Both the position numbers and the translations under genes were made by a program. From contig CADCDY010000021.1 in the NCBI GenBank assembly GCA_902800245.1, positions 1 through 38,552 on the forward strand: 38,552 bases of DNA, given 5' to 3'. The notes under the pieces are model-generated. The model ran no database searches and was not told the origin of the DNA. It was given only the letters and a program-made list of their open reading frames with translations. Source of the DNA: an uncultured Prevotellaceae bacterium. Lineage in GTDB: Bacteria > Bacteroidota > Bacteroidia > Bacteroidales > Bacteroidaceae. Shown here piece after piece: positions 827-16,022 of this stretch. The number at the start of each line of letters is the position of its first letter. Within the stretch, counting starts at the first letter, position 1.

Positions 827-1699
827 ATGAAGAAATTCTACCTAATTGCATTATGCGCAGTCATCAGTTCTGTGGCTTATGCCCAGAGCGGTTCACTGTT
901 TGCCAACAAGAGGTTGGTGTCATTTACGGAGGAAAGTGGTAACTCAAAACGGAAGTATGTTATGGAATACGACGACCAAGGACGTATTCTTAAATATGCC
1001 TCTGAGGATGGCAACAGAGTTCACAACTATACTTATTATGGTGACGACGAAATACTTAACGACGACGGAGCAGAACCAATCACGTATAAACTATCTAATG
1101 GAAGACTGGTGTGGGCAACTATTTTCTTTGATTGCCATACTAATTGTGACATCATTTATGATGACAATAAATTGAAACAAATCGTTGACGGCATAGACGT
1201 AGGAGAATATTCAGAATACGTATGGGATGGCGACAATCCGACGGAATATACTTTCTATTCAAGGAAGGGTAACATTCTGTTCCAAGGCACCTATACGTTT
1301 AACAATATCTCGACCCATCCGCTGGTACACGCATTGTTTGGTCTTGGCGAATATTTTCCAGCGGATCTTGACGAGAAACTGGCTGTTTATCCCTATCTGG
1401 GTGAACTGCCGAAAGGACTTGTTGAGAATTTCTCTTTTACTGAAGATGGCGAAGGGCCTTATTCGTATAACTATACGTACGAACTAAATGACGAGGGTGA
1501 CGTGGTAAAGGTTACTGAGACTAAAAAATCTCGCACCACAATATATACGCTCGAATGGGAAAGTTCTGGTACCGGAATAGAAACTGTTAAGTCTGATTCC
1601 CCATCTGATGGTGTTTACTACAACCTCACCGGCCGCAAGACGGCCAGTCCCGCCAAAGGCGTATTCATCACAAATGGACGTAAAGTCGTGATTCGTTAA
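827..1699 (+). CDS. Exported DUF4595-like protein with C-terminal tag
   Basis: The 290-residue protein starts with a signal peptide (MKKFYLIALCAVISSVAYAQ). It continues with tyrosine- and aspartate-rich beta strands (EYDDQGRI, YTYYGDDEI, WDGDNPTEY) of the kind seen in DUF4595 proteins. The last 30 residues hold YYNLTGR, PAKGVFI and NGRKVVIR, a short tag shared with several other exported proteins in this window and resembling type IX secretion C-terminal signals. The middle block (HPLVHALFGLG) matches the divergent paralogue at 1-668. The start is supported by a good promoter about 40 bases upstream. The function is unknown; surface or outer-membrane location is inferred from the signal and tag. 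Confidence 0.85.
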   Translation: MKKFYLIALCAVISSVAYAQSGSLFANKRLVSFTEESGNSKRKYVMEYDDQGRILKYASEDGNRVHNYTYYGDDEILNDDGAEPITYKLSNGRLVWATIFFDCHTNCDIIYDDNKLKQIVDGIDVGEYSEYVWDGDNPTEYTFYSRKGNILFQGTYTFNNISTHPLVHALFGLGEYFPADLDEKLAVYPYLGELPKGLVENFSFTEDGEGPYSYNYTYELNDEGDVVKVTETKKSRTTIYTLEWESSGTGIETVKSDSPSDGVYYNLTGRKTASPAKGVFITNGRKVVIR

Positions 1700-2053
1700 A
1701 CCCTAAAAACGATGATGCTAGACGAAATCGTTAATTATCTTAAATATTTTCGGTTTTTCGCTCATCCCATTCACTATGTTGGTAAAAACTCGGAACATCC
1801 TTAGAGCAACCCCAGAGCAGAATGGGAGCAACCCTATGGTAAGGCTTTCGTAGGCTAAAATTATGCAAATGTTCGTCAATATCAGTATTTAGAGGCATCT
1901 TCAGAGATTCTTATAACCTCATCAGCCTACCACGTCAGGCATCAATTAGCGTCACAGTCTATCTGCACCGTCTTAACGGGGGTGAAAAAGTATTAATAAA
2001 TCCTTCGTTTTTTCAAGCTCTTTCTACAAAAGTTCCTTGATTTGTGCAAAGAT

Positions 2054-2487
2054 ACCCCTCACCCCTCACCGGAAACGCAGGAAACACCTTTATATAAAGG
2101 GCTTAAGGGTGGGTGAGGGGTATTCTTAGCCCCTCACTCACCTTTACCTCACCCCTCACTATGAAGTACAAGTTGTCAACTAAATTCGTTAAACTACAGT
2201 TGACTGGCAATCTCAATAATGCAAACTGTCAGTCCGTGCCCGACGGACTGGCAGTCCGCTCCTTGCGGAATCAGAGTTTGCTCCCTACGGAATAACGACG
2301 AGCAAGAAGCCGATTGCCTGTGAGCAAGAAGTAACTGTCCGTTAGCTTCCTTTGCGTTCCTTGTTGGTTTCGATGAGGTGAGTGAGGGGTCAGTGAGGGG
2401 TGAGTGAGGGGTCAAGCCTACCCCTCACTGGTTCTCATCCCCTTTCTGCAAAGGCTTTCCCAAAGATTTGAGTGAGGGGTGAGGGGT
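2054..2487. repeat. GTGAGGGG repeat cluster with 7- and 11-bp periods
   Basis: CCCCTCA occurs as a 7-bp tandem pair at 2055-2070 and again around 2130-2159 and 2421-2429. The reverse orientation GTGAGGG(G) occurs at 2113-2120 and 2471-2487 (7-bp period). Three 11-bp units of the form AGTGAGGGGT[C/G] lie head to tail at 2381-2391, 2392-2402 and 2403-2413. Because both orientations are present, several long-range hairpins are possible. No coding function is seen. Confidence 0.7.
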
Positions 2488-2743
2488 TGTTACACGATAG
2501 TCAACCAAAATCAGAAACATCACAGACAGTCAACTCTCATGTTTGACACCGCTAAACTTCGAGTTTACCGGCACTAAAATGCAATACTCCGAAAGAAATT
2601 TTGAATAGTCCAAGAGTATTTTCGATTACTCCCGAAAGTATTGCCCGATACCTTCCCTGTTAACCGCCACGGGCACATGCCCTGTTTTTCCTTCTTCTTG
2701 AAACTTTTTTCCCTTTTCCGCATTGTATTCCAATAATTTTGTG

Positions 2744-2751
2744 TACCTTTG
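2744..2751 (+). promoter_or_regulatory. Promoter -7 element for the 2771 gene
   Basis: TACCTTTG at 2744-2751. The -33 side is weak (ATTG at 2722-2725, 18-bp spacer). The element rules out the upstream in-frame ATG at 2723 and makes the ATG at 2771 the best start. Confidence 0.6.
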
Positions 2752-2770
2752 CATGTCAATAAGAACTGAA

Positions 2771-3226
2771 ATGACAAAGGAACAGCGGACATCAGACGAT
2801 TATTATAAGGAAAGCAAGCGCCTCCGTGCGGAAGTGCTTACAATGGCTGAAGACCTGAAAGGACAACCTTTGCGTTTCGTCATCACCAATGGTATTACGA
2901 TGAATGTTGAGGTCACGAAGTCAGATCTGAAAACTATCGTTAGCAAGGCTTCCCGCGATAACAAATTTAATGCTATTAAGAATGCCCTGGCAAAAGACAT
3001 CCGAGGTTTCCTTGAGAAAGGACAATATTTGGGTTGGCGCTCGGTGACAGAAGGAAAGCATGGTGAAAGTGCTTACTTTGCTTATTTCGATAGGGAGATA
3101 GGGGTGCGGGCGGTACTTGCTATGCGGAAGATGAAGAATGGTGGTCCTTACAAGCCTTATGCGTTCATTGACGAATACGGTTTCTCCGCTACCGAAGAAT
3201 TGCTACAAAAAGGAAATCCGCTTTAA
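2771..3226 (+). CDS. Hypothetical protein, possibly PBECR/LPD-like nuclease-type domain
   Basis: A 151-residue soluble protein starting MTKEQRTSDDYYKESKRL, with no signal peptide. The ATG at 2771 is chosen because the TACCTTTG promoter lies just upstream and transcription would begin after the earlier ATGs at 2723 and about 2753. The C-terminal half (ALAKDIRGFLEKGQYLGW, KHGESAYFAYFDREIGVRAV) resembles in layout the small phage- and polyvalent-protein-associated domains of the Barnase/EndoU/ColicinE5/RelE-like group. There, an 'LPEIIKNSKYIGW...YFAYY...' pattern is common. This is a pattern resemblance only; no catalytic residues can be confirmed. The gene stands alone between repeat-rich segments, which suggests accessory DNA. 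Confidence 0.65.
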   Translation: MTKEQRTSDDYYKESKRLRAEVLTMAEDLKGQPLRFVITNGITMNVEVTKSDLKTIVSKASRDNKFNAIKNALAKDIRGFLEKGQYLGWRSVTEGKHGESAYFAYFDREIGVRAVLAMRKMKNGGPYKPYAFIDEYGFSATEELLQKGNPL

Positions 3227-3233
3227 TGGCCTT

Positions 3234-3321
3234 GCTTGCCGGACCAACCGGGGCTATCCATCTGAAGCGGAGTTAAAAGTGCTTCTATTTTAATAAGTCG
3301 CTTGCCGGACCAACCGGGGCT
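3234..3321 (+). repeat. 22-bp direct repeat pair containing CCGG-accaa-CCGG
   Basis: Two identical 22-bp copies lie at 3234-3255 and 3300-3321, 66 bp apart. Each carries a CCGG(5)CCGG core (TTGCCGGACCAACCGGGG). A partial third copy (ACCAACCGG) occurs near 3467-3475. They fall in the non-coding gap after the 2771 gene. Confidence 0.75.
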
Positions 3322-3421
3322 CTTACCCTAAATAGGTTCCTTTCACGCTGCAAAGATAGGTAATATTTCTGAGATTTCCAAGATTTTTCGTATATTTCTT
3401 CATTTTCTGCAAAATAATCAC

Positions 3422-3579
3422 TAATTTTGCATCCCAGTTATTGCATCAAGAGTGGCACAAGTGCCCACCAACCGGCCTAAGGCGCTTCGCTCTGCGAAGA
3501 ACCATTTTTAAATGAATTGGATCGTTGGCAGCGGTGGTAAAGCGATGCGAGTGAATGTTTAATCCACTAAAAATAAACG
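3422..3579 (+). promoter_or_regulatory. Putative promoter and structured 5' leader of the 3580 gene
   Basis: A -7-like TAATTTTG lies at 3422-3429, with no good -33. The roughly 140-nt leader that would follow holds a GGCAC-aa-GTGCC hairpin (3454-3465) and a CTTCGC-tct-GCGAAG hairpin (3485-3499), then open sequence up to the ATG. Such a long leader is unusual among the other promoters here, most of which lie within 50-100 bases of their gene. Function is inferred. Confidence 0.4.
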
Positions 3580-4014
3580 ATGATGGAAATCAAGAAGATT
3601 GAGAAAAGTGACTTTGTGATGTTCCCACGTATGCAGCATCGTGGGCTCCAGTTCAGACATGTAGAGCGTGATGCCTATCGCGCTGAGTTGCGCCATGTGG
3701 AGGGGCATGGTGACTATTGGCTTTTACACCAACAGTCAAAACCGCACGTTGTGGCCCACGTCCAGTTACCCAAGACGGAGGCCGAGTTCGACAACATCCT
3801 TGGCTTCTGCCTGGGGCAGAACCATTGGTGTGAATACATCGAGGGTGACCTCTCCTTCCTCTGCGTCATTGCAGGCTTCAACGCTGAAGAGCTAACGCCC
3901 AAGTACCCAGACTTCATCAGTGAAAGAGTTTACGCCCTCAGCGATGCCACCCGTTGGTGGCATGAGTATGGGAAGGGAAAGGAAAACACAAGCCAGGGGA
4001 AAAGCCTGGAATGA
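3580..4014 (+). CDS. Hypothetical protein, 144 aa
   Basis: A soluble protein (MMEIKKIEKSDFVMF...) rich in histidine, tryptophan and aromatic residues (HVEGHGDYWLLHQ, GQNHWCEYIEGDLSF, ATRWWHEYGKG). It has no signal peptide or membrane segment. I do not recognise the family. The GKGKENTSQGKSLE tail is low-complexity and its last codons form a small CCAGG/CCTGG hairpin. The second codon is also ATG, so the start could be 3580 or 3583. Codon composition looks coding, and a putative promoter with a long leader precedes it. It stands alone in repeat-rich accessory DNA left of the defence island. Confidence 0.65.
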   Translation: MMEIKKIEKSDFVMFPRMQHRGLQFRHVERDAYRAELRHVEGHGDYWLLHQQSKPHVVAHVQLPKTEAEFDNILGFCLGQNHWCEYIEGDLSFLCVIAGFNAEELTPKYPDFISERVYALSDATRWWHEYGKGKENTSQGKSLE

Positions 4015-4078
4015 TTTTCTAATTAATAGCTTTACCTCGATGATATTGATTATCTTAATATTATCATCACCTCTTGCT

Positions 4079-4162
4079 GTAAAACAAGTTGTTTTACTAT
4101 CGCAGAAGCCGAACTTCTCGATTTATAAGTGCCGTTTATTATTGTAAAACAACTTGTTTTAC
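4079..4162. repeat. Pair of 19-bp quasi-palindromes
   Basis: GTAAAACAAGTTGTTTTAC at 4079-4097 and GTAAAACAACTTGTTTTAC at 4144-4162. Each is a 9-bp inverted repeat around a single central base, and the two copies are exact reverse complements of each other, 65 bp apart. They could be protein-binding or recombination sites, or foldback elements. No gene is encoded between them. Confidence 0.7.
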
Positions 4163-4415
4163 TTTAAGCAGACTGTTCTCTTTCTTACGAAACAATGATT
4201 ATTTAGCCTGATGCATCATGTATAATATATGATAATGAATGATAGTAACTATTTCAATATCATTCACATAAAGTATTGAATATAAGCCAATTACAAAGGA
4301 AATGATATTAAGCATTTTTTACTAAAATAAATTATAACATGTCATCAACTCGTGCCAAAGGCGTAGTGTAGGCGTAGGATAGACAGGCAAGTTGCGTCGG
4401 AGATGACAGGCACTT

Positions 4416-4501
4416 GGCATACTCTAGCCATACTCAAACTATATGCTTAGAGTATGGCAAGAAGCAGCTTAAAAGCAGGCTAGAGTATGGGTAAAGTATC
4501 G
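4416..4501. repeat. 11-bp-period AGAGTATGG repeats, left flank of defence island
   Basis: GGCATACTCTA-GCCATACTCAA at 4416-4437 is an inverted 11-bp tandem pair. A single TTAGAGTATGGC lies around 4447-4458. A direct pair TAGAGTATGGG-TAAAGTATCGA begins at 4481. The same words recur on the far side of the island at 13531-13551. Confidence 0.7.
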
Positions 4502-4539
4502 AATTCCGATAAGGGGTCTATAAAAAGATGTTAAATCTG

Positions 4540-4570
4540 TTTGTATTTCAAATATTTTTGTTTAATTTTG
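4540..4570 (+). promoter_or_regulatory. Promoter of the first defence operon
   Basis: TTTG at 4540-4543, a 19-bp spacer and TAATTTTG at 4563-4570. Transcription would start near 4577, so the coding start must be the ATG at 4598 and not the in-frame TTG at 4541. Confidence 0.7.
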
Positions 4571-4597
4571 CAAGGTAATGTGTACACAACTATAGAT

Positions 4598-5677
4598 ATG
4601 GACGGATTTAAAAATATAGAAATCAAGAATTTCAGGGGTATCGACCATCTGAAGATAGATGATTTTTCGCGTGTCAACGTGTTCTTGGGACAGAACAGTT
4701 CTGGTAAAAGCACAATATTGGAAGCAATCCTGCTTCTTTTAGGTATGTCCAGCCCTGATCTTCCACAAACCCTCAATAAAATAAGGTCTCGCAATAATTT
4801 TAGTGGGGTTGGGGATGTACGTTACATGTTTAACAATCTGGTACTTTCTCTTTCTCCAGAGATAAGCGCAGAATTTGCAGATGATGTAAAACGTCACCTC
4901 AAACTAAATCTGTCGTATGTGTTCAACGAAAATGAGGATATAGCCCGAGAAAATGCCCCCCTTGCAATTTCTGATACCACAGCCTATATCAATACGTTGG
5001 AGATGCTCTTCGATATAGTTGAAAAGAAAGTGAAGAATAGTTATCGTAGTTCCTTAACCTTTAATCAAGGAGGGGCAATAACCGGCAGGAAATTGGCCGA
5101 TGGCTATATTGAAAAAGTGTTTGTCAGTCTTATAACTGCAGATTTGCTGGCAGGAAGTCTTGTAAACGACCTGTCTGAACTTTTCAAGCGCAAGCAAAAA
5201 GACCTGATTGTGGAGCGTTTAGCAAATTTTGATAAGAACATAAACACCATTGATATTTTAAATAATGATGTGTATATCGGTTTTGAAGGTATCAATGAGA
5301 TGTTGCCACTTGGCATGTCTGGCGATGGTCTTCGCAGATTCCTTAACATAGTGGCCAGTTCAGCCAATCCAATGACGAACATTATTCTGATAGACGAAAT
5401 TGACAACGGACTGCATTATTCTGCTTACAAGAAATTGTGGGAAGCTATCTTTGCCATGGCAACGACAACGAATAAGCAGGTCTTCGTGACGACTCATAGT
5501 AAGGAAACGCTTTATAAGCTCAATGAAATGTTGGAAGAAAATTCCGACTATCAGAAAGAATTGAGGCTATATACCATTGAGAAGACTTTAAAGAAGGGAA
5601 TTCAGGCTTATAAGTTGACCTACGATGGTCTGCAAGAAGCATGCTCAAACGATATTGAATTAAGAAGCATAGTGTGA
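4598..5677 (+). CDS. AAA/ABC-type P-loop ATPase of a TOPRIM-coupled defence pair
   Basis: A 359-residue cytoplasmic ATPase starting MDGFKNIEIKNFRGI. The NFRG strand and Walker A GQNSSGKST (residues 31-39) are typical of OLD/RecF/AbiEii-like 'AAA_21/AAA_15' ATPases. An ABC-type signature-like segment, LGMSGDGLRRF, lies near residues 238-248. Walker B NIILIDEIDNGLH (D266/E267) and the H-switch VTTHSKE follow. The stop codon overlaps the next start (TGATG), implying translational coupling to a TOPRIM protein. That arrangement resembles a split OLD nuclease or the AriA-AriB (PARIS) pair. A role in anti-phage defence is inferred from family and context. The start at 4598 is fixed by the promoter at 4540-4570. 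Confidence 0.88.
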   Translation: MDGFKNIEIKNFRGIDHLKIDDFSRVNVFLGQNSSGKSTILEAILLLLGMSSPDLPQTLNKIRSRNNFSGVGDVRYMFNNLVLSLSPEISAEFADDVKRHLKLNLSYVFNENEDIARENAPLAISDTTAYINTLEMLFDIVEKKVKNSYRSSLTFNQGGAITGRKLADGYIEKVFVSLITADLLAGSLVNDLSELFKRKQKDLIVERLANFDKNINTIDILNNDVYIGFEGINEMLPLGMSGDGLRRFLNIVASSANPMTNIILIDEIDNGLHYSAYKKLWEAIFAMATTTNKQVFVTTHSKETLYKLNEMLEENSDYQKELRLYTIEKTLKKGIQAYKLTYDGLQEACSNDIELRSIV

Positions 5678-6285
5678 TGAAAGGACTATATACGATCTAT
5701 GTTGAAGGAATCGCAGATGTGAGATTTCTCAGTCAATACATTCATCATCTGTTTGGCGTTATAGTTCCTGAAGAGAGAATTGTAAAGTTGGACGGATGGA
5801 CAAATTTGAAGGGTACAACATGGCAGCAGAGAATGAGAGCCATAACGGACAAAGGTGGTACCAATATTGTCATTATAGACGCAGATAATGATATTGAAGC
5901 CCGACGTTCTGATGTATTGTTATGGAAAGAGGAAAATGCTCTGGAATTTGAGTTGTTCCTTTTGCCCAACAACAAAGATGCAGGTGCATTAGAAGACTTG
6001 TTAGAAAGGATTGTCAATCCAAACAACCGCCCCATTCTTGATTGTTGGGAGAATTACGAGCAAGAATTGGTTCAGCTTGACATCCCAGGTAGAACACCCC
6101 CGCCTCTGACAACTCCTGCCAAGAAAACAAAAATATACGGTTATCTTGAAGCGATGCTCAAACCGAGCCAAAAAGAGTTGATAAAAGAGGTAAACCGCAA
6201 TTACGAGAACACCCAGCACTGGAATCTGGAAGCAGAGTATCTTGGGCAGTTGAAAGAGTTTTTGGAGAAATTCATGTCGCATTAA
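5677..6285 (+). CDS. TOPRIM-fold protein (DUF3226/DUF4435-like), partner of the ATPase
   Basis: A 202-residue protein starting MKGLYTIYVEG at the ATG that overlaps the ATPase stop. TOPRIM hallmarks are visible: an acidic residue in YVEG (E10) and the D-x-D strand VIIDADND (D68, D70). The block FLLPNNKDAGALEDLL (residues 94-109) matches the 'PDN...GmLEdfl' segment typical of DUF3226. In OLD and PARIS systems the TOPRIM part is the nuclease or effector, released or activated by the ATPase. The same division of labour is inferred here. DUF3226 is preferred over DUF4435 because of the PNN-GALED block, but both are remote TOPRIM relatives. Confidence 0.82.
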   Translation: MKGLYTIYVEGIADVRFLSQYIHHLFGVIVPEERIVKLDGWTNLKGTTWQQRMRAITDKGGTNIVIIDADNDIEARRSDVLLWKEENALEFELFLLPNNKDAGALEDLLERIVNPNNRPILDCWENYEQELVQLDIPGRTPPPLTTPAKKTKIYGYLEAMLKPSQKELIKEVNRNYENTQHWNLEAEYLGQLKEFLEKFMSH

Positions 6286-6321
6286 CATATTGTTAAATGG
6301 ATTATTACGAAGCTATATAAT

Positions 6322-7488
6322 ATGCCTAAATCTATCATAGTTTATAAAGTATTTCTTGCTTCTCCTGGAGATGTAAAAGAAGAAAGGGCAGAAGTGAAGA
6401 AGGTCGTGGAACTATTCAATCAAATAAACTCAAAAAACGGCATAAAATTAGAGTTGGTTTGTTGGGAAGATAGTACATCTCCTGCATTTGGAGAATATCC
6501 TCAAGAAGTGGTTAGTTCTCAGATAGGTGATGACTATGATATTTTCATAGGTATCTTATGGGCAAGATTTGGGACGCCGACTCCCCATTTTGGATCTGGC
6601 ACCGAGGAAGAGTTCAATGGAGCATATAGGCGGTTGCAGTGTGGTGACAAGCTAGAAATAATGATATACCTTAAAGATGATAGTATATCTCCATCACAAA
6701 TAGATCCCGTGCAACTTGGAAGGGTTAAAGATTTTATTTCAAAGTTGCCTGATTTAGGCGGGTATTATTTCTCCTTTAAATCTAAAGAAGAATTTCACGA
6801 TTTGCTTTTAAAGCATCTAAAAGAATCTGTTGATCGCTTAGAACAAGAAAATAATACCCCATCAGTTATAAACTCAATTGTGGAGCTCCGTCAAAAAGAG
6901 CATCCGCTGGAGTGTACTGTTCAAACAGATAATTGGGGCTTTTTTGAATATGAAGATTTCATACTGCAAAAAACTCAAGATGTCATTGCAAGCATCAATC
7001 AAATGACAAGTTTGACAGAAAGATTCAATGGCGATATCAATATGCATACGCAGGAATTCCTGTACTTGCAGAAAAATCCAAATAGAATGTACGCAAAAAG
7101 CATTTGCATAAACACAGCGCGAGATATGAATAGGTATGCCAAAGACATTGATGTAGCTAACAAATCTTGGTTTACCGGTCTTGGAAAAATGCAGGGTGGC
7201 GTCAGAAATATGTTAGAGATATCGGAAGGTCTCACATCTAATAGCGATTGGGAAGGCTTGGTTGATAGTTTACACTATTTGTCTGGCGAAATGGGGAAAA
7301 CGTATAGTGCAATTCGACAATTATATACAGCGGTTAATAGTATTCCTAAGATATCGCAACCTTTGAATATCGCTCGGCAAAACGTATGCAAGACGTTAAA
7401 GGATATTCTAACGAATGTAGAAACTGGAAGAGACTACTGTGAAGAGACAATAAGTACTATTGAGAACAAAATACATCCGATAGTGTAA
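6322..7488 (+). CDS. DUF4062-like (TIR-related fold) protein with C-terminal helical region
   Basis: A 388-residue cytoplasmic protein. The N-terminal ~165 residues (KVFLASPGDVKEERAEV, a YDIFIGILWARFGTPT strand near residue 75, GTEEEFNGAYRR, IMIYLKDD) match DUF4062-type domains, a TIR-like sensor or effector domain common in defence and STAND proteins. The remaining ~220 residues are mostly helical with no motif I recognise; there is no NTPase P-loop, so it is not a full STAND ATPase. It lies 36 bp after the TOPRIM gene and 13 bp before the HNH gene on the same strand, so it is probably in the same operon. An effector or NAD-related activity is only a possibility, since no catalytic residue can be assigned. 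Confidence 0.75.
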   Translation: MPKSIIVYKVFLASPGDVKEERAEVKKVVELFNQINSKNGIKLELVCWEDSTSPAFGEYPQEVVSSQIGDDYDIFIGILWARFGTPTPHFGSGTEEEFNGAYRRLQCGDKLEIMIYLKDDSISPSQIDPVQLGRVKDFISKLPDLGGYYFSFKSKEEFHDLLLKHLKESVDRLEQENNTPSVINSIVELRQKEHPLECTVQTDNWGFFEYEDFILQKTQDVIASINQMTSLTERFNGDINMHTQEFLYLQKNPNRMYAKSICINTARDMNRYAKDIDVANKSWFTGLGKMQGGVRNMLEISEGLTSNSDWEGLVDSLHYLSGEMGKTYSAIRQLYTAVNSIPKISQPLNIARQNVCKTLKDILTNVETGRDYCEETISTIENKIHPIV

Positions 7489-7501
7489 ATAATAGAGCTA
7501 T

Positions 7502-8287
7502 ATGGCAAGAGATAATTGGACTGAAGAGCAGATTACGATAGTACTCTATGAGTATTGTCGGAATCCGTTTGGACAATTCTCAGCAACGAAGCCATTCGTA
7601 AAGGAGTTGGGGAAGTTGTTGGGTCGCACATCTGGGGCTATTGTCCGTAAGGTCGGAAATCTTGCCAGTTTTGACCCTCAGATGAAAGCAAGAGGTGTTG
7701 GAGGGCTTGGTCATACAGGAAAACTTGATGAAGTTGTATGGAATAGGTATTTCGGTCATTGGGACAAACTCGCCTATAACGCAGAGGTGCTGTTGGCAAA
7801 GTTCAAAAACAAGGAACTGGAAGAATCTTTGACAATTGATCTTAACGATTTGCCAAAAGGGTCTGAACGCATTCAGGAAGTTAAGCAAAGAATTAATCAA
7901 TGCTTTTTCAGGGACACGGTATTGTCCTCGTATGAGAACAAGTGCTGTATAACAGGAATAAACAACACCATGTTACTTCATGCTTGTCATATTGTAGGGT
8001 GGAGCGAAGATGAGGTAAATAGAACAAACCCGCAAAACGGCTTATGTCTGAATGTTTTTTTCCATAAAGCGTATGATGAGAACCTTATTGGTATCTCACC
8101 GGATTATGAGATATTCGTTTCAGATGAATTCTTTGGAGCGAAATTAGAAAATGTGGATTCATCTACAAAGGAGTATATAAAGAGTATTAATCATAGAAAA
8201 CTGATAATGCCTAAACGGTTCCTGCCTAACAGGGATTTGTTGGCTATTCATTTTGATAATTTCAGAAACAATAATATACTGAGATGA
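7502..8287 (+). CDS. HNH restriction-type endonuclease
   Basis: A 261-residue protein. Its N-terminal ~60 residues (WTEEQITIVLYEYCRNPFG...LGRTSGAIVRKVGN) look like a SANT/Myb-like or helix-turn-helix DNA-binding module. The C-terminal half is an HNH domain of the HNH_2 type: YENKCCITG, LLHACHIVGWSEDE (H160, H163), NRTNPQNGLCLN, FFHKAYDENLIGI. In this family the HNH domain cuts DNA using one divalent metal. Position directly after the DUF4062-like gene makes it the last gene of the first operon, and the next gene has its own promoter. It probably supplies DNA cleavage to this cassette; its specificity is unknown. Confidence 0.85.
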   Translation: MARDNWTEEQITIVLYEYCRNPFGQFSATKPFVKELGKLLGRTSGAIVRKVGNLASFDPQMKARGVGGLGHTGKLDEVVWNRYFGHWDKLAYNAEVLLAKFKNKELEESLTIDLNDLPKGSERIQEVKQRINQCFFRDTVLSSYENKCCITGINNTMLLHACHIVGWSEDEVNRTNPQNGLCLNVFFHKAYDENLIGISPDYEIFVSDEFFGAKLENVDSSTKEYIKSINHRKLIMPKRFLPNRDLLAIHFDNFRNNNILR

Positions 8288-8364
8288 AAACCTGATAAAT
8301 GTTTAATTTGCCAGATTATTCTTAAAATGACATCAACATTGATTCCTCAAATACAATCTTTTAG

Positions 8365-8372
8365 TAACTTTG
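8365..8372 (+). promoter_or_regulatory. Promoter -7 element of the second defence operon
   Basis: TAACTTTG at 8365-8372 with a poor -33. It lies between the HNH gene and the 8390 gene and rejects an upstream in-frame ATG at 8327 as the start. Confidence 0.55.
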
Positions 8373-8389
8373 CACAAAAAAGCAAAGTG

Positions 8390-8974
8390 ATGAAAAGATT
8401 ATTTTTTAGAAGTGAAAAGGCTTTCCTTGAAAAACTTGATGGGAAAGTTTATGCAATTTGCGATAAACATGGCCATTATTTGTGTGACATAATCGAGGAT
8501 GACTATTTGAGGTTGATAGACGCAGGCATCATTATTAACTTGGACGATAACAGGGATTATACATTAATGGAAGCAGATTGTAATGATATGCTTACATTAG
8601 ACTTAGGCGAAAAAGGACAAAATGATTTCAAAGAGAGATTTGGCTTGTTCATAGAAATAAAAGGTGAGTACAACAAAATACATTTTAAAGAGTTTTCCTT
8701 TGACTATGAAATAGATAATTTGATTTTAAAGTCTTCTAAGGAAGAAGATGAAACCTCATTTGTATTTATAGATGGAATTGCCATTCAGATTGAATCATTA
8801 GAGACTCTTGTGCCTGTTGAATGTCCGATTATATTAACATATCCACATAAACAAGAAGTTTACAATAGTAAGAGAATGCGTGACGAAATAGAAGACTATA
8901 GGGGACATTCGTGGGATGGTGATTGTTATAGTATAGCTCTTCTATACGGTGTAGAGCGGAGGTTGTGCAATTAA
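8390..8974 (+). CDS. Hypothetical protein, first gene of the McrBC-like operon
   Basis: A 194-residue acidic protein (MKRLFFRSEKAFLEKLDGKVYAICDKHG...). It has no signal peptide or membrane segment and no motif I recognise. The ATG at 8390 is chosen because the TAACTTTG promoter element at 8365-8372 follows the earlier in-frame ATG. It is only 18 bp before the mcrB-like gene and in the same orientation, so it is probably cotranscribed with the type IV restriction module. Roles as a regulator, inhibitor or specificity factor are all possible; none is visible in the sequence. Codon use is AT-rich like the first operon. Confidence 0.7.
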   Translation: MKRLFFRSEKAFLEKLDGKVYAICDKHGHYLCDIIEDDYLRLIDAGIIINLDDNRDYTLMEADCNDMLTLDLGEKGQNDFKERFGLFIEIKGEYNKIHFKEFSFDYEIDNLILKSSKEEDETSFVFIDGIAIQIESLETLVPVECPIILTYPHKQEVYNSKRMRDEIEDYRGHSWDGDCYSIALLYGVERRLCN

Positions 8975-8992
8975 ACAATAAACGTACAAAGT

Positions 8993-10585
8993 ATGAACAA
9001 TAATAGAAACATTATTAAAACAGAGTTCAAGTATTATCTGGCAAATGTCGCACGTTCCGCCAGACGAACCAGCGAAGGTTTTAACCTTGGAAGAACTGCA
9101 GTTGATAGTTTTCTTTCTTTTATCGAAACAGATAAATTGTTTGATTATGCGCCAGAGAAATGGAAGCATATAGAATCTATGTATGATATAACAACGCCTA
9201 CTGAAGTGAAGCAAATTGCAGATGTGCTACTGAATGACAAGACATTTCTTGAGCATGATAATGCAAAAAACCAAGGATGGAGGTCTGGAGCCATATCGCA
9301 TTATGTCTGTTTTATCAATGCACGTTCTTTTTTCTTGGGGTTACAAGATGAAAGTAAGCATTCTTGTCAACTAAATAAATCTCTTCAACAAATCTTCTAT
9401 GGTGCTCCTGGAACAGAGTATATACGTTCCTATCTAACCGCTCTTCGTACTAAGCCGTTTATGTTGTTGGCAGGTATCTCTGGTACGGGCAAAAGCCGCA
9501 TTGTGAGAAAACTGGCACAAGCGACCACAACACAGAAATACGATAAGGATGAAGACCGCTGGAAGGACAACCGTCCAGAGAACTTTGAGCTGATACAGGT
9601 GAAACCTAATTGGCATAACTCGATGGATGTGGTTGGTTTTTATTCCAATATCTCTGGGAAATATGAGTTTACACCCTTCGTGGAGTTTATCGTGAAGGCC
9701 TGGCAGCATCAGGACACTCCGTATTTCCTTTGCTTGGATGAGATGAATCTGGCCCCAGTGGAAGAATACTTTGCTGAGTTCCTTAGTGCCATTGAGTCAC
9801 GCTCTACCGACGAGAACGGAGATTACATAACTGACCCTATCATCAAACCGTTCAAGAATTTTGGTGAGAAAGAAGGCAAATCAATGCTTATACAGTTACT
9901 CGGTGACGCTGACCCTATAGACAAAAATCCCATAGCTGTACATTTTTACGAAAAAGGTCTCACCTTGCCTCCTAACTTGATGGTGATGGGTACGGTGAAT
10001 ATGGACGAGACGACTTTCTCATTCTCGCGCAAGGTGCTGGATAGGGCAATGTCGGTGGAGATGAACGAAGTGGATTACGACAAGTTCCTGTCGGGCGAAA
10101 GCGAGCAGTTCCCCTTGCTGACGGACATGAATGAGTTGCTGGTGAACCGTCCACAACGGGCAGCAGAAGTGACAGAGGAGATGGAATCAGATAAGGTGGT
10201 TGCCTATTTAAAGGATGTGAACACGCTGATGGAAGGAACACCGTTCAAGCTCGGTTATCGTGCCGCAAACGAGGCTATGCTTTATGTCGCAGCCTGCAAA
10301 AAGTTTGCAGGAAGCGACTATGCTTTGGCAAATGCGTTGGACGAATTCACCTTGATGAAGATTCTTTCTCGCATTGAGGGTGACGACAGTCGGTTGGGCA
10401 TTGCCGACGATGACTCGCGGATTGCCACACTTGGCATAGAAGCAAACGAACAACATACAAGCTTGTTGACTTGCCTGAAGGCAATCGTCCATAAACACAT
10501 TGGAGCTTCCAGCGAGACAGAGAAGAAGATTGACCAAATGTGTAATACGCTTGAACGTGAGCATTTTGTCTCTTATTGGGCATAA
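8993..10585 (+). CDS. mcrB: McrB-like AAA+ GTPase of a type IV restriction system
   Basis: A 530-residue motor subunit that in McrBC systems uses GTP to translocate DNA and activate the McrC nuclease at modified bases. An N-terminal region (about 1-140) has no family I can name and probably reads the target. The AAA+ core shows Walker A GISGTGKS (161-168), Walker B FLCLDEMN (245-252) and the McrB consensus GTVNMDETT (333-341, corresponding to the MNTAD loop), followed by the R-K-V-L-D-R arginine segment (346-351). A P-loop-like IFYGAPGT without the lysine lies just upstream (near 134-141). Its stop abuts the start of the DUF2357 gene with no gap. mcrB is used for family; the substrate modification is unknown. 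Confidence 0.88.
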   Translation: MNNNRNIIKTEFKYYLANVARSARRTSEGFNLGRTAVDSFLSFIETDKLFDYAPEKWKHIESMYDITTPTEVKQIADVLLNDKTFLEHDNAKNQGWRSGAISHYVCFINARSFFLGLQDESKHSCQLNKSLQQIFYGAPGTEYIRSYLTALRTKPFMLLAGISGTGKSRIVRKLAQATTTQKYDKDEDRWKDNRPENFELIQVKPNWHNSMDVVGFYSNISGKYEFTPFVEFIVKAWQHQDTPYFLCLDEMNLAPVEEYFAEFLSAIESRSTDENGDYITDPIIKPFKNFGEKEGKSMLIQLLGDADPIDKNPIAVHFYEKGLTLPPNLMVMGTVNMDETTFSFSRKVLDRAMSVEMNEVDYDKFLSGESEQFPLLTDMNELLVNRPQRAAEVTEEMESDKVVAYLKDVNTLMEGTPFKLGYRAANEAMLYVAACKKFAGSDYALANALDEFTLMKILSRIEGDDSRLGIADDDSRIATLGIEANEQHTSLLTCLKAIVHKHIGASSETEKKIDQMCNTLEREHFVSYWA

Positions 10586-12802
10586 ATGGCTGTGAAGGGG
10601 GACATATTTAACTTTGAGATTCGGAACAATGATGTCCGAATGCGTTTCTCGTGTGACAAAACCATCGATCGCATACGAAAGGCGATGGAAAACCTTTCTG
10701 TGGAACGGGGCGACGAGAAACTGATGGCTGAATTTGTCACCTCACAAGAGGATGCCAGCTTTGTTTTCAATGGGCATGAAAGCAATAACAAGCAACTGAT
10801 GCACGAGGCTCTTTTCTTCGAGAATACACAATACCCCGTGCTTATTCAGGGAGAAGATGGAGTGAGCGAAATGTCGCTGATGTTCTCCAACGTGACAAAA
10901 GACTCACAGTTGAGTATCGACGGGAATCTGCTGTTTGGCGCTGTCGGATTCGGCAATCAGGTCGGGAAAACCGACATCAGTCTTAACTATAAGAAGGACG
11001 GAAGGACGAAAAGCCTGCGTTTCACCACGGAGGTACTGAGTTACAAGATGGATTACCGCACTGACATGAAGTGGATTATCCGTGACATAGAGCAGGAATA
11101 CAGTATGCTGTCGTTTGCCTTCATGCGCGAAACCTACATCAACTTCCGTACTAGCAGTGGTGAATCGTCTGATCTGATTTGGTGGCAGATATTCCAATCA
11201 TGCTTTAATGACATCACCAAAGCCTGCCGACAAATCATCAACTCTCCCAAACGGAAGTTGCACGATAGAGTGAGCTATGAACGTCAGGAGAGGCTGAGAT
11301 GGGTGGAGCGTGAACTGGAGAACGAATACTACGAGTTCAAGGATGACCCACATCACCTCTATCGCACTCATGAACTCTGTCACACCAACGACACCATAGA
11401 GAACCGTTTCCTGAAATTTGTAATGGGTCAAACGCTGCAACGCTTCAACATTGTGAGCCAACATATCAGGAATGCCGTCGCTAAATCCAAGATTATGGAA
11501 AGTAGGCTCGACGAGATGGGAGAGGAGCTGCAACGGCTGGTGAGCCATCCTTTCTTCCGGAATATCGGAGTGTTCAAGGGATTCTCGCAAGACTCGCTGG
11601 TGATGAAGAAATCCATCAACTATCGAACCATCTACCAAAAATGGATTGAGTTGCTTTGCGGATATGAACTGGAGGAAGGTGTTAACAAACTGGAGACGAA
11701 GGATATAGCCATGTTGTATGAGATATGGTGTTTCTTGAAAGTAAAGAACATTGTTTCCGACCTGTTGGGTGAGAAGGCTGTTGCTCAATACAAAGGCAAG
11801 AAGATGACGCCGCAGTTTATCCGTGATTTGAACTGGGGCACGCATTCGGAGGTTATCTTCCTGCGGACGGAGGACGATGTGGAATTGGCATCGGTAATGT
11901 ATAATGCTCCAGTGAAAGAAGATGATAGTAAAGTGTCGTCTGCCATAAAGGGGACAAAGACATTTACCACTCAACAGCGTCCTGATATCGTGTTGCGTTT
12001 GACTAAACGGCAGAAGGGAATTCAATATACCTTCCTTTTCGATGCAAAATACCGCATAAGCGATTCTCATCCCGACGATATGGACATTCCACCAAGTGAT
12101 GCCATTGACCAGATGCACCGCTATCGTGATGCCATCTATTTTATCGAACCAGCCAACCAGAAGCCCAAGCGTGAAGTAATAGGCGGATATGTCCTTTTCC
12201 CAGGGAACTACACTCGTGAGGAGTTTGAAAAGTCACATTATTATGAATCGATCAAGGCTATTGGCATCGGCGCATTTCCATTGAAGCCGTCAGACGGGAT
12301 TATAGTTGATCCTAATAATAGTGAACAGGCATTGCGTGAACAGATAGCGGAATGGTTGAAGCGGAGCCGGATGAAGACTTATCTGTATAAGAATGTGGCG
12401 CCCCAACATGGATTGGAATACCAAAATCCTGACGATGTACTTCTTGTAAATTTCGCAAAGAAGGACAAACTTGCGAAGATGAAAGAGCTGGGATTGTGCT
12501 ATCTTCGTACAGGCGAAGATGCGGGAGCAATTGTTTTGGAGCCAAGAGCATTGAATGCAAAGTACGTGATATTGCATAACGGAACATCTGGCACATTGTA
12601 TAAGTTGAAAGGTGGGGGGCCGAGATTTATGTCTAAGGAAGCTTTGCAAAAGAAAGGCTTTGAAAACTTGGGGCATGATTATTATTTGGTATATTCTTTT
12701 GATACAAGTAAATCGCAAGACTATGCCATAATACCCGCTCTTGCGAGGAGAAATAGTACTGCACGCCCTTGGTTTGCTACTTGGGAAGAACTTATGCATT
12801 AG
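10586..12802 (+). CDS. mcrC: DUF2357 PD-(D/E)xK nuclease, McrC-like subunit
   Basis: A 738-residue protein directly abutting the McrB-like gene. The first ~450 residues fit the DUF2357 region (ENRFLKFVM, LEMLYEIWCFLKV-like segment near 370). A PD-(D/E)xK nuclease follows: RPDIVLRL with D467, then FDAKYRI with D486 and K488. This layout is the alternative McrC found beside McrB-type GTPases, and it makes the DNA cut in type IV restriction. After the nuclease core (ending near residue 600) there is a further segment of about 110-130 residues (VLLVNFAKKDKLAKM..., LGLCYLRTGEDAG, KYVILHNG) that I cannot assign. The gene name reflects role by context rather than close similarity to E. coli McrC. 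Confidence 0.85.
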   Translation: MAVKGDIFNFEIRNNDVRMRFSCDKTIDRIRKAMENLSVERGDEKLMAEFVTSQEDASFVFNGHESNNKQLMHEALFFENTQYPVLIQGEDGVSEMSLMFSNVTKDSQLSIDGNLLFGAVGFGNQVGKTDISLNYKKDGRTKSLRFTTEVLSYKMDYRTDMKWIIRDIEQEYSMLSFAFMRETYINFRTSSGESSDLIWWQIFQSCFNDITKACRQIINSPKRKLHDRVSYERQERLRWVERELENEYYEFKDDPHHLYRTHELCHTNDTIENRFLKFVMGQTLQRFNIVSQHIRNAVAKSKIMESRLDEMGEELQRLVSHPFFRNIGVFKGFSQDSLVMKKSINYRTIYQKWIELLCGYELEEGVNKLETKDIAMLYEIWCFLKVKNIVSDLLGEKAVAQYKGKKMTPQFIRDLNWGTHSEVIFLRTEDDVELASVMYNAPVKEDDSKVSSAIKGTKTFTTQQRPDIVLRLTKRQKGIQYTFLFDAKYRISDSHPDDMDIPPSDAIDQMHRYRDAIYFIEPANQKPKREVIGGYVLFPGNYTREEFEKSHYYESIKAIGIGAFPLKPSDGIIVDPNNSEQALREQIAEWLKRSRMKTYLYKNVAPQHGLEYQNPDDVLLVNFAKKDKLAKMKELGLCYLRTGEDAGAIVLEPRALNAKYVILHNGTSGTLYKLKGGGPRFMSKEALQKKGFENLGHDYYLVYSFDTSKSQDYAIIPALARRNSTARPWFATWEELMH

Positions 12803-12805
12803 TTT

Positions 12806-13435
12806 ATGGATAAACTCTCGAAACTCCAACGACATGACAAGGCTGCGATTAAGCGAGAACAGAGCGATGCTTGCATCAGCTCTGTCGAGCGTGAGCAGGC
12901 TCGGCGATCAGCCAATATGGCGGCGATTCGGTCGAAGGACACGAAGCCGGAGATGATTGTGCGACGTGGGCTGTGGAAAAGAGGTTTTCGTTATAGACTG
13001 AACCACAAAAGATTGCCTGGGCATCCGGACTTGGTGCTGAGGAAATACAGGACTTGCATCTTTGTGAATGGATGCTTTTGGCATGGACACAACGTGACGG
13101 AGTCACGGATGGAAGATGTCAGAGGGAAGATGGAAGATGTAATTGAGAGTTCGGAGTGTTGCAAGATTCCGAAGACGAACAGGGAGTTCTGGGTGGCGAA
13201 GATTCAGAGGAACAAGGAACGTGATAAGGAGGAACAGCGCAAGTTGGCTGAAATGGGCTGGCATTGCATCACGGTATGGGAGTGCGAGCTGACGCCCAAA
13301 CGACGCGAAGAAACATTGGAATCATTAGCCTTCACGTTGAACCACATCTGGTTGCAAGACCACGGTGCCAAGACAATTCCTTATCCCCAGTTGGAGGAAG
13401 AGGATGTGCAGATACCAATGGCTGCAGAAGATTAA
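12806..13435 (+). CDS. vsr: Vsr-like (very short patch repair) endonuclease with repeat-derived insertion
   Basis: A 209-residue protein starting 3 bp after the McrC-like stop. Vsr motifs are clear: MAAIRSKDTKPEMIVRRGLW, GFRYRLN, GHPDLVL with the catalytic aspartate D75, FVNGCFWHGH (C90, H93, H95), PKTNREFWVAKIQRN and VWECEL. Vsr proteins nick the T strand of T:G mismatches made by deamination of 5-methylcytosine and are usually about 140-150 aa. This one is longer, with an unusual 40-residue N-terminal lead and an extra segment of about 16-20 residues after the HGH motif, encoded by a heptamer array (13108-13142). No cytosine methyltransferase is visible in the window. It probably belongs to the McrBC-like operon. 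Confidence 0.88.
   Translation: MDKLSKLQRHDKAAIKREQSDACISSVEREQARRSANMAAIRSKDTKPEMIVRRGLWKRGFRYRLNHKRLPGHPDLVLRKYRTCIFVNGCFWHGHNVTESRMEDVRGKMEDVIESSECCKIPKTNREFWVAKIQRNKERDKEEQRKLAEMGWHCITVWECELTPKRREETLESLAFTLNHIWLQDHGAKTIPYPQLEEEDVQIPMAAED
13108..13142 (+). repeat. Heptamer array inside the vsr reading frame
   Basis: Five 7-bp units GATGGAA, GATGTCA, GAGGGAA, GATGGAA and GATGTAA lie in tandem. They encode the RMEDVRGKMEDV segment that separates the CFWHGH and PKTN motifs of Vsr. Read on the other strand they match the family of the array at 27654-27709. Confidence 0.8.
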
Positions 13436-13587: not shown

Positions 13588-13617
13588 TTTGTTTCTCATT
13601 TTTAATTTGTACTTTTG
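13588..13617 (+). promoter_or_regulatory. Promoter of the C10 peptidase gene
   Basis: TTTG at 13588-13591, an 18-bp spacer (slightly short) and TACTTTTG at 13610-13617, followed by a leader of about 60 bases to the ATG at 13683. Confidence 0.6.
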
Positions 13618-13682
13618 CAACAGCATTAGTATGAAACGTAAAAGGCATGCATAATTTAATTACATATACAAATATTAATCTT

Positions 13683-16022
13683 ATGAAGAAAGTATTACTT
13701 ATCGTGACCTTGACCGTTCTGACTATCACAGCAACGGCAGGTGAAGTAACAGTTAAGAAGGCGCTTCAAAAGGCACGTGCCTTCATGTCTCAGAAAGAGA
13801 GCGACATGCAACTTGTGGCTCAGGACAAGAGTAAACAACCTGCGTGGTATGTCTTTGCCCCAGCCAAAAAAAACAGCGGCTTTGTCATTATGGCTGGCGA
13901 CGACCGTGTCAGTCAGGTGTTAGGCTACACCGACGAAGGTTCCTTCGACCCTGACAACATGCCTGAGAATATGGAGTGGTGGCTGAAGGGCTGCACTGAG
14001 CAGATTCAGTGGCTGCGCGAAGGCAAGGCCAGTGCGAGGCGTGCTCCAGAAGGACGTCAGGCTGTGGCTCCTATGCTGACAACAAAATGGGGACAGGACG
14101 GACCCTACAACCTGCGAACTCCTGTCATCAACAGCTATCATGCCCCCACAGGCTGTATGCCCACCGCTTTGGCCCAGATTCTGTACTACTGGAAGAGCAC
14201 AGCTGGTGCAAAAGCTTTGGATGCCTATACCACCTACACAAATGGAATCAATATGCCAGCCCTGCCAGCCACGACCTTCGACTATAACCTGATGCAGGAC
14301 GAATACGACGCCGACGCCACTGATGCATCCGCTCAGGAGGTGGCCAAACTGATGCTCTACTGCGGACAGGCATTCAAAGTCGATTATCAAGAGTTGGAAT
14401 CGGGAGCCAGCGGAGGCAGCAATGTCTTCGTCAACAACTTCTACTTTGATATTCACGGACGCGACCTCAAGCGTATAGCCGAGAGTCAGGAAGAATGGGA
14501 TGCTACTCTCTATGCTGAGATGAAGGCCGGTCGCCCCATATTCATGTCTGCCATAAACTATCAGGCTGGTCATGGTTTCGTAATCGACGGCTATGACGGC
14601 AATGGTCTCTATCATATCAATTGGGGATGGAATGGTCGCGACAACGGTTTCTATGTGCTCGATGTTGCCTGCCCTAGCAGAGAGGGGCATGTTGCCCTCC
14701 AAGGCGAAGGCTACACCATCGGTCAGGTGGCTGGCTTGGAACTGCGGCCCGCTTCAGATGCTATCAGCCACAACGATATGGCGCTGAGTGTTCAAAGCCT
14801 TGAATTGGATGCTGCAAGCTACACGCGTTCATCGTCCGAAGAAGACTTTACGGTAAATGCTACTGCCTATGTACAAAACGACTACGGCAGCACGCTTAGT
14901 TTCAACAATACTGTGGGCGTGTTTACTACCGATGGCCAATTTTTGAAAGCTGGTACAATAAGTACTGTTTCCGATTTGCAAAACATGTATGGCGGTAAAT
15001 GGACACGTACCATCAGTTTCGGCAGTGGCCTGAACGATGGCACCTATATCCTGAAAATGGTTAGCCGTCTGGTAGGAGAGGAAAAATGGAATGAGGACTT
15101 CGGCAGCTATCGTCACTACGCAGAGCTAACCATCAGTGGCAACAGCATGACGGCTAACGTGGTGACCAATCCATTTAACCGCAGTCTTACTATCAATTCC
15201 ATGGAAGTTATCGGCAATGCTTGGCAGGGGGCTGAAGTTACGCTGAAGTTTAATGCCACCAACACGGGAACCTACTACATCAACAATGTCTATGCACACA
15301 TCAACAATGTGCTTCAGTCTGCCATCGGACTATCTCTAGAACCTGGCGAAACAGGAGACTTCTATCTGCATTACACACCGACAAGCAGCGGTAATCAGAC
15401 CGTAAATTTGCGCTCTTCCAAATATAATGGCAGTGGTACATCCTATTTGACCAGTTCTTTCACCGTTGCCGCCAAACCCGACGCCTTGACAGCCAACGTC
15501 ACCTCTGCAGGCTGGGCAACATTTGTTCCTGCCTTCAATGTGACAGTACCCGAGGGCGTTGAGGCTTACTACGTTTCTGCTGCTTCTGATGTCAGTGCTA
15601 CGCTAACTCAGATAACGGATAAGATTTGTGCCAAGGAACCCGTACTGCTGAAGAACGAAGGAACACACAGCTTCCCTGTTACCAGTGCCTATGTCGCTAA
15701 ACTGGACGACAACCTGCTGAAGGTGAGCGACGGTGCACAGGGGGTAAACGACTACGTATTGGCCAACCACGGAACTGTAGGCTTCTACAAATGGATTGGT
15801 GCGGCTCTCGAATCCGGTAAGGTCTATCTGCCCGCAAGTGCTATTGCTTCTGGTGCTCCTGAATTCATCAGTATCCTCAATGATAACGTCACGGGCATCA
15901 GCACTACGCTCATGAATAATGAAAGAGTGAATAGCGAGGTCTATAATCTCAACGGTCAGCGTGTAACTCAGCCTACCAAGGGTCTCTACATTGTGAACGG
16001 AAAGAAAGTCGTTCTCAAATGA
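13683..16022 (+). CDS. Secreted C10-family cysteine protease (interpain/streptopain-like)
   Basis: A 779-residue precursor beginning MKKVLLIVTLTVLTITATAG (signal peptide). The next ~130 residues are the Spi/I69-like propeptide (VKKALQKARAFMSQKES, FVIMAGDDRVSQVLGYTDEG). The catalytic domain carries the cysteine in PTGCMPTALAQILYYW (C158) and the histidine in AGHGFVIDGYDG (H297), then INWGWNGRDNGFYVLD. About 400 residues of beta-sandwich-like repeats follow. The end has the tag YNLNGQR-VTQP-TKGLYIVNGKKVVLK, resembling type IX sorting signals. These peptidases act outside the cell on host or dietary proteins. An upstream in-frame ATG at 13647 is rejected because MKK gives a clean signal peptide. 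Identification is firm; the substrate is unknown. Confidence 0.93.
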   Translation: MKKVLLIVTLTVLTITATAGEVTVKKALQKARAFMSQKESDMQLVAQDKSKQPAWYVFAPAKKNSGFVIMAGDDRVSQVLGYTDEGSFDPDNMPENMEWWLKGCTEQIQWLREGKASARRAPEGRQAVAPMLTTKWGQDGPYNLRTPVINSYHAPTGCMPTALAQILYYWKSTAGAKALDAYTTYTNGINMPALPATTFDYNLMQDEYDADATDASAQEVAKLMLYCGQAFKVDYQELESGASGGSNVFVNNFYFDIHGRDLKRIAESQEEWDATLYAEMKAGRPIFMSAINYQAGHGFVIDGYDGNGLYHINWGWNGRDNGFYVLDVACPSREGHVALQGEGYTIGQVAGLELRPASDAISHNDMALSVQSLELDAASYTRSSSEEDFTVNATAYVQNDYGSTLSFNNTVGVFTTDGQFLKAGTISTVSDLQNMYGGKWTRTISFGSGLNDGTYILKMVSRLVGEEKWNEDFGSYRHYAELTISGNSMTANVVTNPFNRSLTINSMEVIGNAWQGAEVTLKFNATNTGTYYINNVYAHINNVLQSAIGLSLEPGETGDFYLHYTPTSSGNQTVNLRSSKYNGSGTSYLTSSFTVAAKPDALTANVTSAGWATFVPAFNVTVPEGVEAYYVSAASDVSATLTQITDKICAKEPVLLKNEGTHSFPVTSAYVAKLDDNLLKVSDGAQGVNDYVLANHGTVGFYKWIGAALESGKVYLPASAIASGAPEFISILNDNVTGISTTLMNNERVNSEVYNLNGQRVTQPTKGLYIVNGKKVVLK

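Follow-up and report, generated by a model that had tools for sequence, protein, structure and literature searches.

The stretch of DNA considered here (the window) is a contig of 38,552 nucleotides (nt) from an uncultured Prevotellaceae bacterium (CADCDY010000021.1), and our subject is a group of defence genes on its + strand. The original prediction had singled out four of them, at 4598-8287, as one undescribed defence system: a P-loop ATPase, a TOPRIM protein of the DUF3226 family, a DUF4062-like protein and an HNH nuclease. All four open reading frames (ORFs) are present at these positions, open, intact and co-directional; their families had been correctly recognised, and so had the tight packing, the promoter in front of the first gene and the ATPase/TOPRIM stop-start overlap, which is also kept if the TOPRIM ORF begins at the alternative GTG at 5674. 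These coordinates are nevertheless too short, as the co-directional run comprises eight genes and extends from 4598 to 13435 (Table 1). The predicted four make up the left portion of a longer anti-phage operon that is assembled mix-and-match, a type known from gut Bacteroidales. The promoter follows the Bacteroidetes-type consensus, TTTG-N19-TAnnTTTG, which is matched 9 times in the window against a mean of 0.86 in shuffled sequences.

Table 1. Features of the operon, in positions of the 38,552-nt window (aa, amino acids)
Feature	Position	Strand	Details
Promoter, Bacteroidetes type, TTTG-N19-TAnnTTTG	4540..4570	+	27 nt 5' of the ATPase ATG
ATPase, ABC-type (OLD-like), AbiLi / PDC-M38A type	4598..5677	+	359 aa
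Central segment of the ATPase (codons ~40-240), class-switching, proposed sensor	4715..5317	+	pairwise identities, classes, breakpoint fits
TOPRIM nuclease (DUF3226; PDC-M38B, AbiLii-like)	5677..6285	+	start taken at ATG
DUF4062 TIR-like protein with C-terminal region of ~190 aa, Swarozyc-like	6322..7488	+	DUF4062 profile match
HNH endonuclease (HNH_2)	7502..8287	+	HNH_2 3.4e-10; PADLOC HNH 2.5e-69
Possible second promoter half-site, TAACTTTGC	8365..8373	+	TAnnTTTGC, 5' of g195
g195	8390..8974	+	ATG at 8390; longest ORF from 8327; no family above cut-off
McrB-like AAA protein	8993..10585	+	AAA_5 25.9 bits, cut-off 22; PDC-M26A 2.5e-45
McrC-like protein	10586..12802	+	DUF2357 2.4e-40; PDDEXK_7 7.2e-31
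Vsr endonuclease	12806..13435	+	Vsr 1.4e-30; TIGR00632 127.7 bits, cut-off 97.85

The first two genes form a pair of the AbiL/PDC-M38 type. The ATPase matches the PADLOC model AbiLi (PDLC02336, 3.2e-60) over residues 5-356 and PDC-M38A (1.8e-46), as well as AAA_15 (2.2e-25) and AAA_21 (4e-19); Walker A starts at residue 31 (31-39), the signature-like motif GMSGDG lies at 239 and the Walker B region at 262. The TOPRIM protein, of the OLD-type fold, matches DUF3226 (5.1e-13) and, partially (residues 78-133), PDC-M38B (5.6e-6), and the adjacent M38A and M38B genes by which a PDC-M38 candidate system is defined are found here. Among 73 aligned TOPRIM proteins, DUF3226 is found by Pfam in all, PDC-M38B is matched by 71 and AbiLii (PDLC02338) by 50 at E<=0.001 (best AbiLii match 2.4e-11), and none shows DUF4435 by Pfam at E<=0.001. 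Residues E10, D68 and D70 are invariant across the alignment and, as the E and DxD of the OLD-type family, are presumably catalytic.

In the relatives, this pair is a constant head followed by variable cargo. A contig scan with the window TOPRIM protein gave 69 loci (L024-L092), of which the 50 with a best-segment identity of at least 54% (L024-L073) are called near loci. They were found by patterns from the window's own TOPRIM and form an uneven sample, mostly of metagenome assemblies, many from ruminants, in which single loci may carry assembly errors. Two sets served for comparison: L074-L086 (13 loci), and 12 loci drawn from 301 sampled genomes of the family to which the window belongs. 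In that sample TOPRIM was matched in 14 genomes, and of the 14 regions taken around the matches L105 and L106 gave no TOPRIM ORF. L079, L081, L093 and L095 stand in the comparison sets although they are near relatives. ORFs were called from the first start codon with a minimum of 60 aa, so that small or broken genes can escape. After clustering, annotation used Pfam for 39 selected representatives and, in addition, profiles derived from the clusters; co-directional runs tolerate gaps of up to 400 nt. We count as core restriction genes methylases, GHKL ATPases, McrB, McrC or its c18 counterpart, Vsr and HNH, while the cluster profiles do not cover HsdR, N6-methylase fusions or all kinds of DUF4062.

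Every one of the 50 near loci has an ATPase ORF directly 5' of TOPRIM, which is split in L040 and truncated by the start of the contig in L057. Counted from the first start codon, a 4-nt overlap of the two ORFs is seen in 52 of 77 rows; two of the 77 lack an adjacent ATPase. Behind TOPRIM, the co-directional run holds a core restriction gene in 39 of the 50 near loci, with methylases in 26, McrB/C in 32 and GHKL proteins in 21; the other 11 run into a contig end, a gap or a strand change, or carry other genes, such as the fused N6-methylase/specificity protein behind the pair in L028. The cargo varies among near loci between methyltransferases, GHKL ATPases, McrBC, Vsr, DUF4062 and HNH. The left edge that the pair forms is sharp: core restriction matches number 2 in 288 kb upstream (2 loci) and 136 in 347 kb downstream (40 loci). 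Among 47 of the 48 loci used for the segment analysis below, a TAnnTTTG half-site was found within 110 nt 5' of the ATPase start in 39, against 7.2% of shuffles, at 22-42 nt from the start in 34 of these 39, and a full promoter in 11, against 0.2% of shuffles. TOPRIM is separated from the following gene by at most 40 nt in 34 of 46 loci, and 2 of these 46 gaps contain a half-site.

Seven loci (L087-L092, L106) match only 26-56 residues of the window TOPRIM, all from residue 142 on. These remnants stand before cargo, six of the seven directly before a recognised cargo gene, and the McrC of L106 is 98% identical to that of the window. Thus, head and cargo can separate near the TOPRIM 3' end, by loss or exchange. 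In L087 (6959-8159) and L089 (6801-8150), a YhcG (DUF1016) nuclease gene is located 5' of the TOPRIM remnant, as if it had been substituted for the ATPase-TOPRIM head at the same joint.

The head is itself mosaic. Over 1,275 pairs (51 loci), the identities of ATPase and TOPRIM are modestly correlated (r 0.39), and single pairs are clearly discordant: L024 and L053 share 95% identity in the ATPase and 58% in TOPRIM, L024 and L026 60% and 92%. The window and L058 are 90% identical in nucleotide sequence over the ATPase gene (4567-5685), with TOPRIM proteins 59% identical. The ATPase was further analysed by segments in 48 loci (1,128 pairs), that is the window and L024-L073 minus L048, both of whose proteins are identical to those of L047 from the same genome (it is counted among the near loci), and minus L040 and L057, whose ATPase ORF is shorter than 300 aa. 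Over residues 60-230 the identities are two-peaked, at 35-45% and 60-75%, with 37 pairs at 50-60%; no comparable gap was seen in residues 1-55 and 240-359 of these loci. Linkage of the central segment at 55% gave eight classes (20, 11, 4, 4, 3, 3, 2 and 1 loci), that of the window also holding L058 and L070.

The centre is less than 50% identical in 21 pairs whose ATPase C-terminal part and TOPRIM reach 80% identity or more. For these pairs, fitting two breakpoints places the low segment from a median of aa 39 (32-62) to aa 243 (182-271), adjoining Walker A and the signature-like motif. The stretch 40-240 has a length of 197-204 aa in every one of the 48 loci. In a tree built from TOPRIM joined to the C-terminal part of the ATPase, the three classes tested were rejected as clades, with very small p values to be read as conflict and not as exact odds, these two parts reassorting in some loci. 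Swapping is not free, since the classes are clustered on that tree (20 changes vs 25.8 in shuffles). The largest TOPRIM cluster (14 loci, 80% linkage) contains five ATPase classes. ATPase class showed no association with cargo in the 42 loci with a cargo label (14 same-same pairs, shuffled mean 15.0, standard deviation 3.9).

DUF4062 and HNH belong to the variable cargo. The DUF4062 match of the window (9.1e-8) reaches 32.6 bits with a cut-off of 24.7, and its E97 is shared by 13 of 14 aligned proteins; the other is a fragment without that region. By profiles, DUF4062 occurs in 5 of the 50 near loci (L046, L062, L063, L069, L070), in two subfamilies; L062 has only the C-terminal part of the gene, and the compared loci gave matches to the C-terminal region in L062, L063 and L069 only. 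Together with the window, 6 rows carry the DUF4062 label, which requires 5 changes on the TOPRIM tree (shuffled mean 5.9). HNH is found in the run of seven near loci (L026, L029, L055, L063, L066, L067, L069). Since both accompany the pair in two near loci only, L063 and L069, the four genes do not hold as one undescribed system: the co-occurrence and order of their families break down in relatives, where they are found apart or shuffled, the window's order being repeated in L063 and, with a Bro-N gene between DUF4062 and HNH, in L069. At E<=1e-30, HNH relatives are present in 13 of 301 family genomes including the window's, some beside a C5 methylase or Vsr, and the two DUF4062 profiles found no DUF4062 in the other 12 neighbourhoods (ten further regions, L106 and L126).

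The remaining genes follow HNH on the same strand with gaps of 102 nt to g195 (39 nt with its longest ORF), 18 to McrB, 0 to McrC and 3 to Vsr. In the window the AAA McrB-like protein is followed by a DUF2357 plus PD-(D/E)XK protein, as in McrBC systems of the DUF2357 type. The McrB-McrC DNA (9380-12849) is 93% identical to that of L069, and genome G152 encodes a 98% identical McrC. Among the 301 family genomes, 40 have an McrC match at E<=1e-10, in many of them confined to the last ~110 residues; in 24 further McrC regions of this sample, several of them cut by contig ends, no TOPRIM was detected by profile or tblastn, and 15 of these regions carry a C5 methylase. The sole other g195 found, in L126 (genome G197), lies between HNH and McrB (344 bits; 1.8e-100). 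In L126 one run (1426-11536) encodes an N4/N6 methylase, a GHKL kinase-like protein, an uncharacterized gene, HNH, the g195 relative, McrB and McrC, with no ATPase-TOPRIM within the stretch examined. Because the last four stand there in succession, HNH-g195-McrB-McrC may be a travelling block. In the window, a 791-aa ORF 3' of Vsr (13588-16022), with its own promoter match at 13588-13617, probably delimits the operon on the right.

Other genes were observed in the slot. A protein of about 720 aa directly behind TOPRIM in L030 (7253-9412; relatives in L050 and L059), whose L030 copy has no Pfam match at 0.001, is possibly another cargo type. In L039 (8653-11700), TOPRIM is followed by non-restriction cargo, a protein of 1015 aa that matches metallophosphatase and STAND NTPase families. 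L031 (9759-13469) and L072 (8733-12343) share a block of C5 methylase, HD-CE, ORC-CDC6-like protein and a protein with weak CARF similarity, and L139 (6916-12319), an IMG/VR contig, has the ATPase-TOPRIM pair, a 421-aa protein and a D12 methylase, resembling L033.

What the analysis demonstrates is the anatomy and evolution of the locus, namely gene content, constant head, promoter, mosaicism, TOPRIM remnants, segment classes and conserved TOPRIM residues; every biochemical step that follows is an inference, including sensing by the central segment, cleavage and layering. We consider it fairly probable that the locus is a modular defence operon, in which an autonomous abortive pair of the AbiL/PDC-M38 type with a diversified sensor serves as second line to exchangeable restriction modules. 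The ATPase would keep the TOPRIM nuclease inactive until the central segment of the ATPase (aa ~40-240) encounters a phage product, and would then release or activate TOPRIM, which, by analogy with AriB, would cut nucleic acid, probably RNA and possibly tRNA, so that the cell stops. The pair would also supply the promoter, its 3' end being the joint behind which defence cargo is interchanged. In many cases this cargo is a C5-methyltransferase/GHKL-ATPase system with McrB-McrC-Vsr; in the window it consists of a predicted Swarozyc-like DUF4062 NADase, the HNH nuclease and g195-McrB-McrC-Vsr. Restriction cargo would act first on phage DNA, DUF4062 would form a further layer by depleting nicotinamide adenine dinucleotide (NAD), and the pair would act abortively once the phage gets past restriction, the layers presumably being independent of one another.

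More tentatively, the ATPase of this AbiL/PDC-M38 clade could be a modular receptor with a recombination-shuffled sensor cassette (197-204 aa, at least eight types), exchanged through the conserved ATP-site motifs, and the pair a guard within restriction operons that fires once phages disable the cargo; we would give this whole proposal somewhat less than an even chance. The shuffled specificity domains of type I restriction offer a parallel to such a cassette.

Several observations weigh against the reading as a modular operon. Outside the near clade the pair is seldom beside restriction genes: a core restriction gene follows it in 1 of 13 loci (L074-L086) and 1 of 12 family-sample loci, thus 2 of 25, to which the HsdR-like gene of L083 may be added, and both positives are near relatives (L081, whose partial TOPRIM shows 73% identity; L095, which the tree places within the near clade). 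Half-sites also precede McrB in 6 of 31 loci and occur at 8365 in the window, where a second transcript may begin at g195, so that there are possibly two transcripts. No AbiLii match was obtained for the window TOPRIM protein at E<=1. ATPase class goes with TOPRIM cluster more often than in shuffles (44 same-same pairs, shuffled mean 26.0; a value reached in 33 of 2000 shuffles), and their reassortment is partial. The association of TOPRIM with cargo is weak (11 vs 7.4; 299 of 2000 as high), coupling being neither demonstrated nor excluded. The low-confidence model of the DUF4062 protein (mean pLDDT, a per-residue confidence score, 65.7 overall) has a helical C-terminus that seems unlike the winged AUX domain of KpSwz. 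Finally, all eight classes have an acidic central segment (mean net charge -4.2 to -7.3), unlike the AriA residues said to meet Ocr, which are positively charged (PMC11455837); an Ocr-type trigger is thus without support. As an observation apart, the HsdR-like gene of L083 (8622-11867) lies directly 3' of a distant ATPase-TOPRIM pair, a type I restriction link outside the near clade.

Alternatively, the locus could be an ordinary defence island, where an AbiL-like pair, a Swarozyc-like gene, a restriction nuclease and McrBC, all unrelated, came side by side in an exchange hotspot with no layering. This is the most serious competitor, and we regard it as possible though rather doubtful. The modules are indeed separable, ATPase class does not match cargo, and DUF4062 proteins are reported next to diverse defence genes (PMC13174449). 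Yet the order is fixed, with restriction genes 3' of the pair (136 matches vs 2 upstream), and the recognised cargo consists mostly of restriction genes; moreover, the promoter at the head together with the short gaps behind TOPRIM indicates co-expression of pair and cargo. It seems unlikely that the TOPRIM pair is instead the cleaving arm of a restriction system, whose methylases behind the pair would protect host DNA. Methylases do occur there in 26 of 50 near loci and OLD/Gabija TOPRIM proteins are reported as DNA cutters (PMC12409363), but the window operon carries no methylase, the three C5-methylase matches of this genome being on other contigs, 24 of 50 near loci lack one in the run (some truncated), and ATPase class does not follow changes in the type of cargo. 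Least probable of all is an integrated machine of the four genes, or of ATPase-TOPRIM-DUF4062-HNH plus McrBC, with the ATPase as infection sensor driving TOPRIM, NADase and HNH jointly: tight packing behind one promoter and the order repeated in L063 and, with the insertion, L069 speak for it, and the rarity of DUF4062 with HNH among relatives, the scattered DUF4062 label on the TOPRIM tree (5 changes for 6 rows) and the isolated C-terminal part in L062 speak against it.

If, in our preferred reading of a modular operon with an abortive second line, the central segment is the sensor, its natural classes provide a ready panel to study what AbiL/PARIS-like pairs recognise. A fixed head before interchangeable restriction genes would also be a clear case of an abortive module that may back up restriction, probably from the same transcript. 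PARIS and PrrC are other cases in which such backing may occur.

A literature search, with texts covered in part, found no published description of the head-plus-slot organisation or of the ATPase segment classes. Many cargo genes are of the kinds (C5 methylase, GHKL, response-regulator-like, Vsr, HNH_2) known from MORC/paraMORC (GHKL) and from HK/RR-like C5-methylase systems with Vsr and HNH_2 (PMC2292703, PMC8011034). The main text of PMC8011034 does not mention TOPRIM, DUF3226 or DUF2357, and that of PMC2292703 mentions neither McrC nor DUF2357, and TOPRIM for topoisomerases and in one reference only. Swarozyc, described in a May 2026 preprint as a single-gene system with a TIR-like NADase, DUF4062 (PMC13174449), shares with the window protein an N-terminal DUF4062, a conserved Glu (E97 in the window, which we infer to correspond to the catalytic Glu of KpSwz) and an extra C-terminal region; in the window protein this region has matches in three of the loci compared.

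The original prediction had rightly likened the pair to split OLD and PARIS. The two-gene detection rule of PARIS requires DUF4435 (PMC9122126), and its AriB effector is a TOPRIM tRNase released by AriA (PMC12409363, PMC11455837). The window ATPase passes the AAA_15 and AAA_21 thresholds of PARIS (32 and 27 bits) with 90.5 and 70.2 bits, but its effector is DUF3226 and not DUF4435 (PF14491). As to novelty, the combination as a whole had been thought to lack a name, yet existing PADLOC models (AbiLi, PDC-M38A, PDC-M38B) already cover the pair and DUF4062 is known as Swarozyc (PMC13174449). AbiL is a two-gene abortive system, and the RloB family, kin of AbiLii, is reported from operons of type I restriction (PMC10440598). 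In E. coli, AbiLii of Fusobacterium nucleatum is a growth inhibitor, whereas lactococcal AbiLii was not (PMC3985639). From this toxicity and the place of RloB, a restriction-linked abortive pair has precedent. Like AbiL/PDC-M38, the window has two adjacent genes, an OLD-like ATPase then TOPRIM; unlike them, its TOPRIM is DUF3226, the pair heads C5-methylase/GHKL/McrBC cargo and the centre of the ATPase switches between classes.

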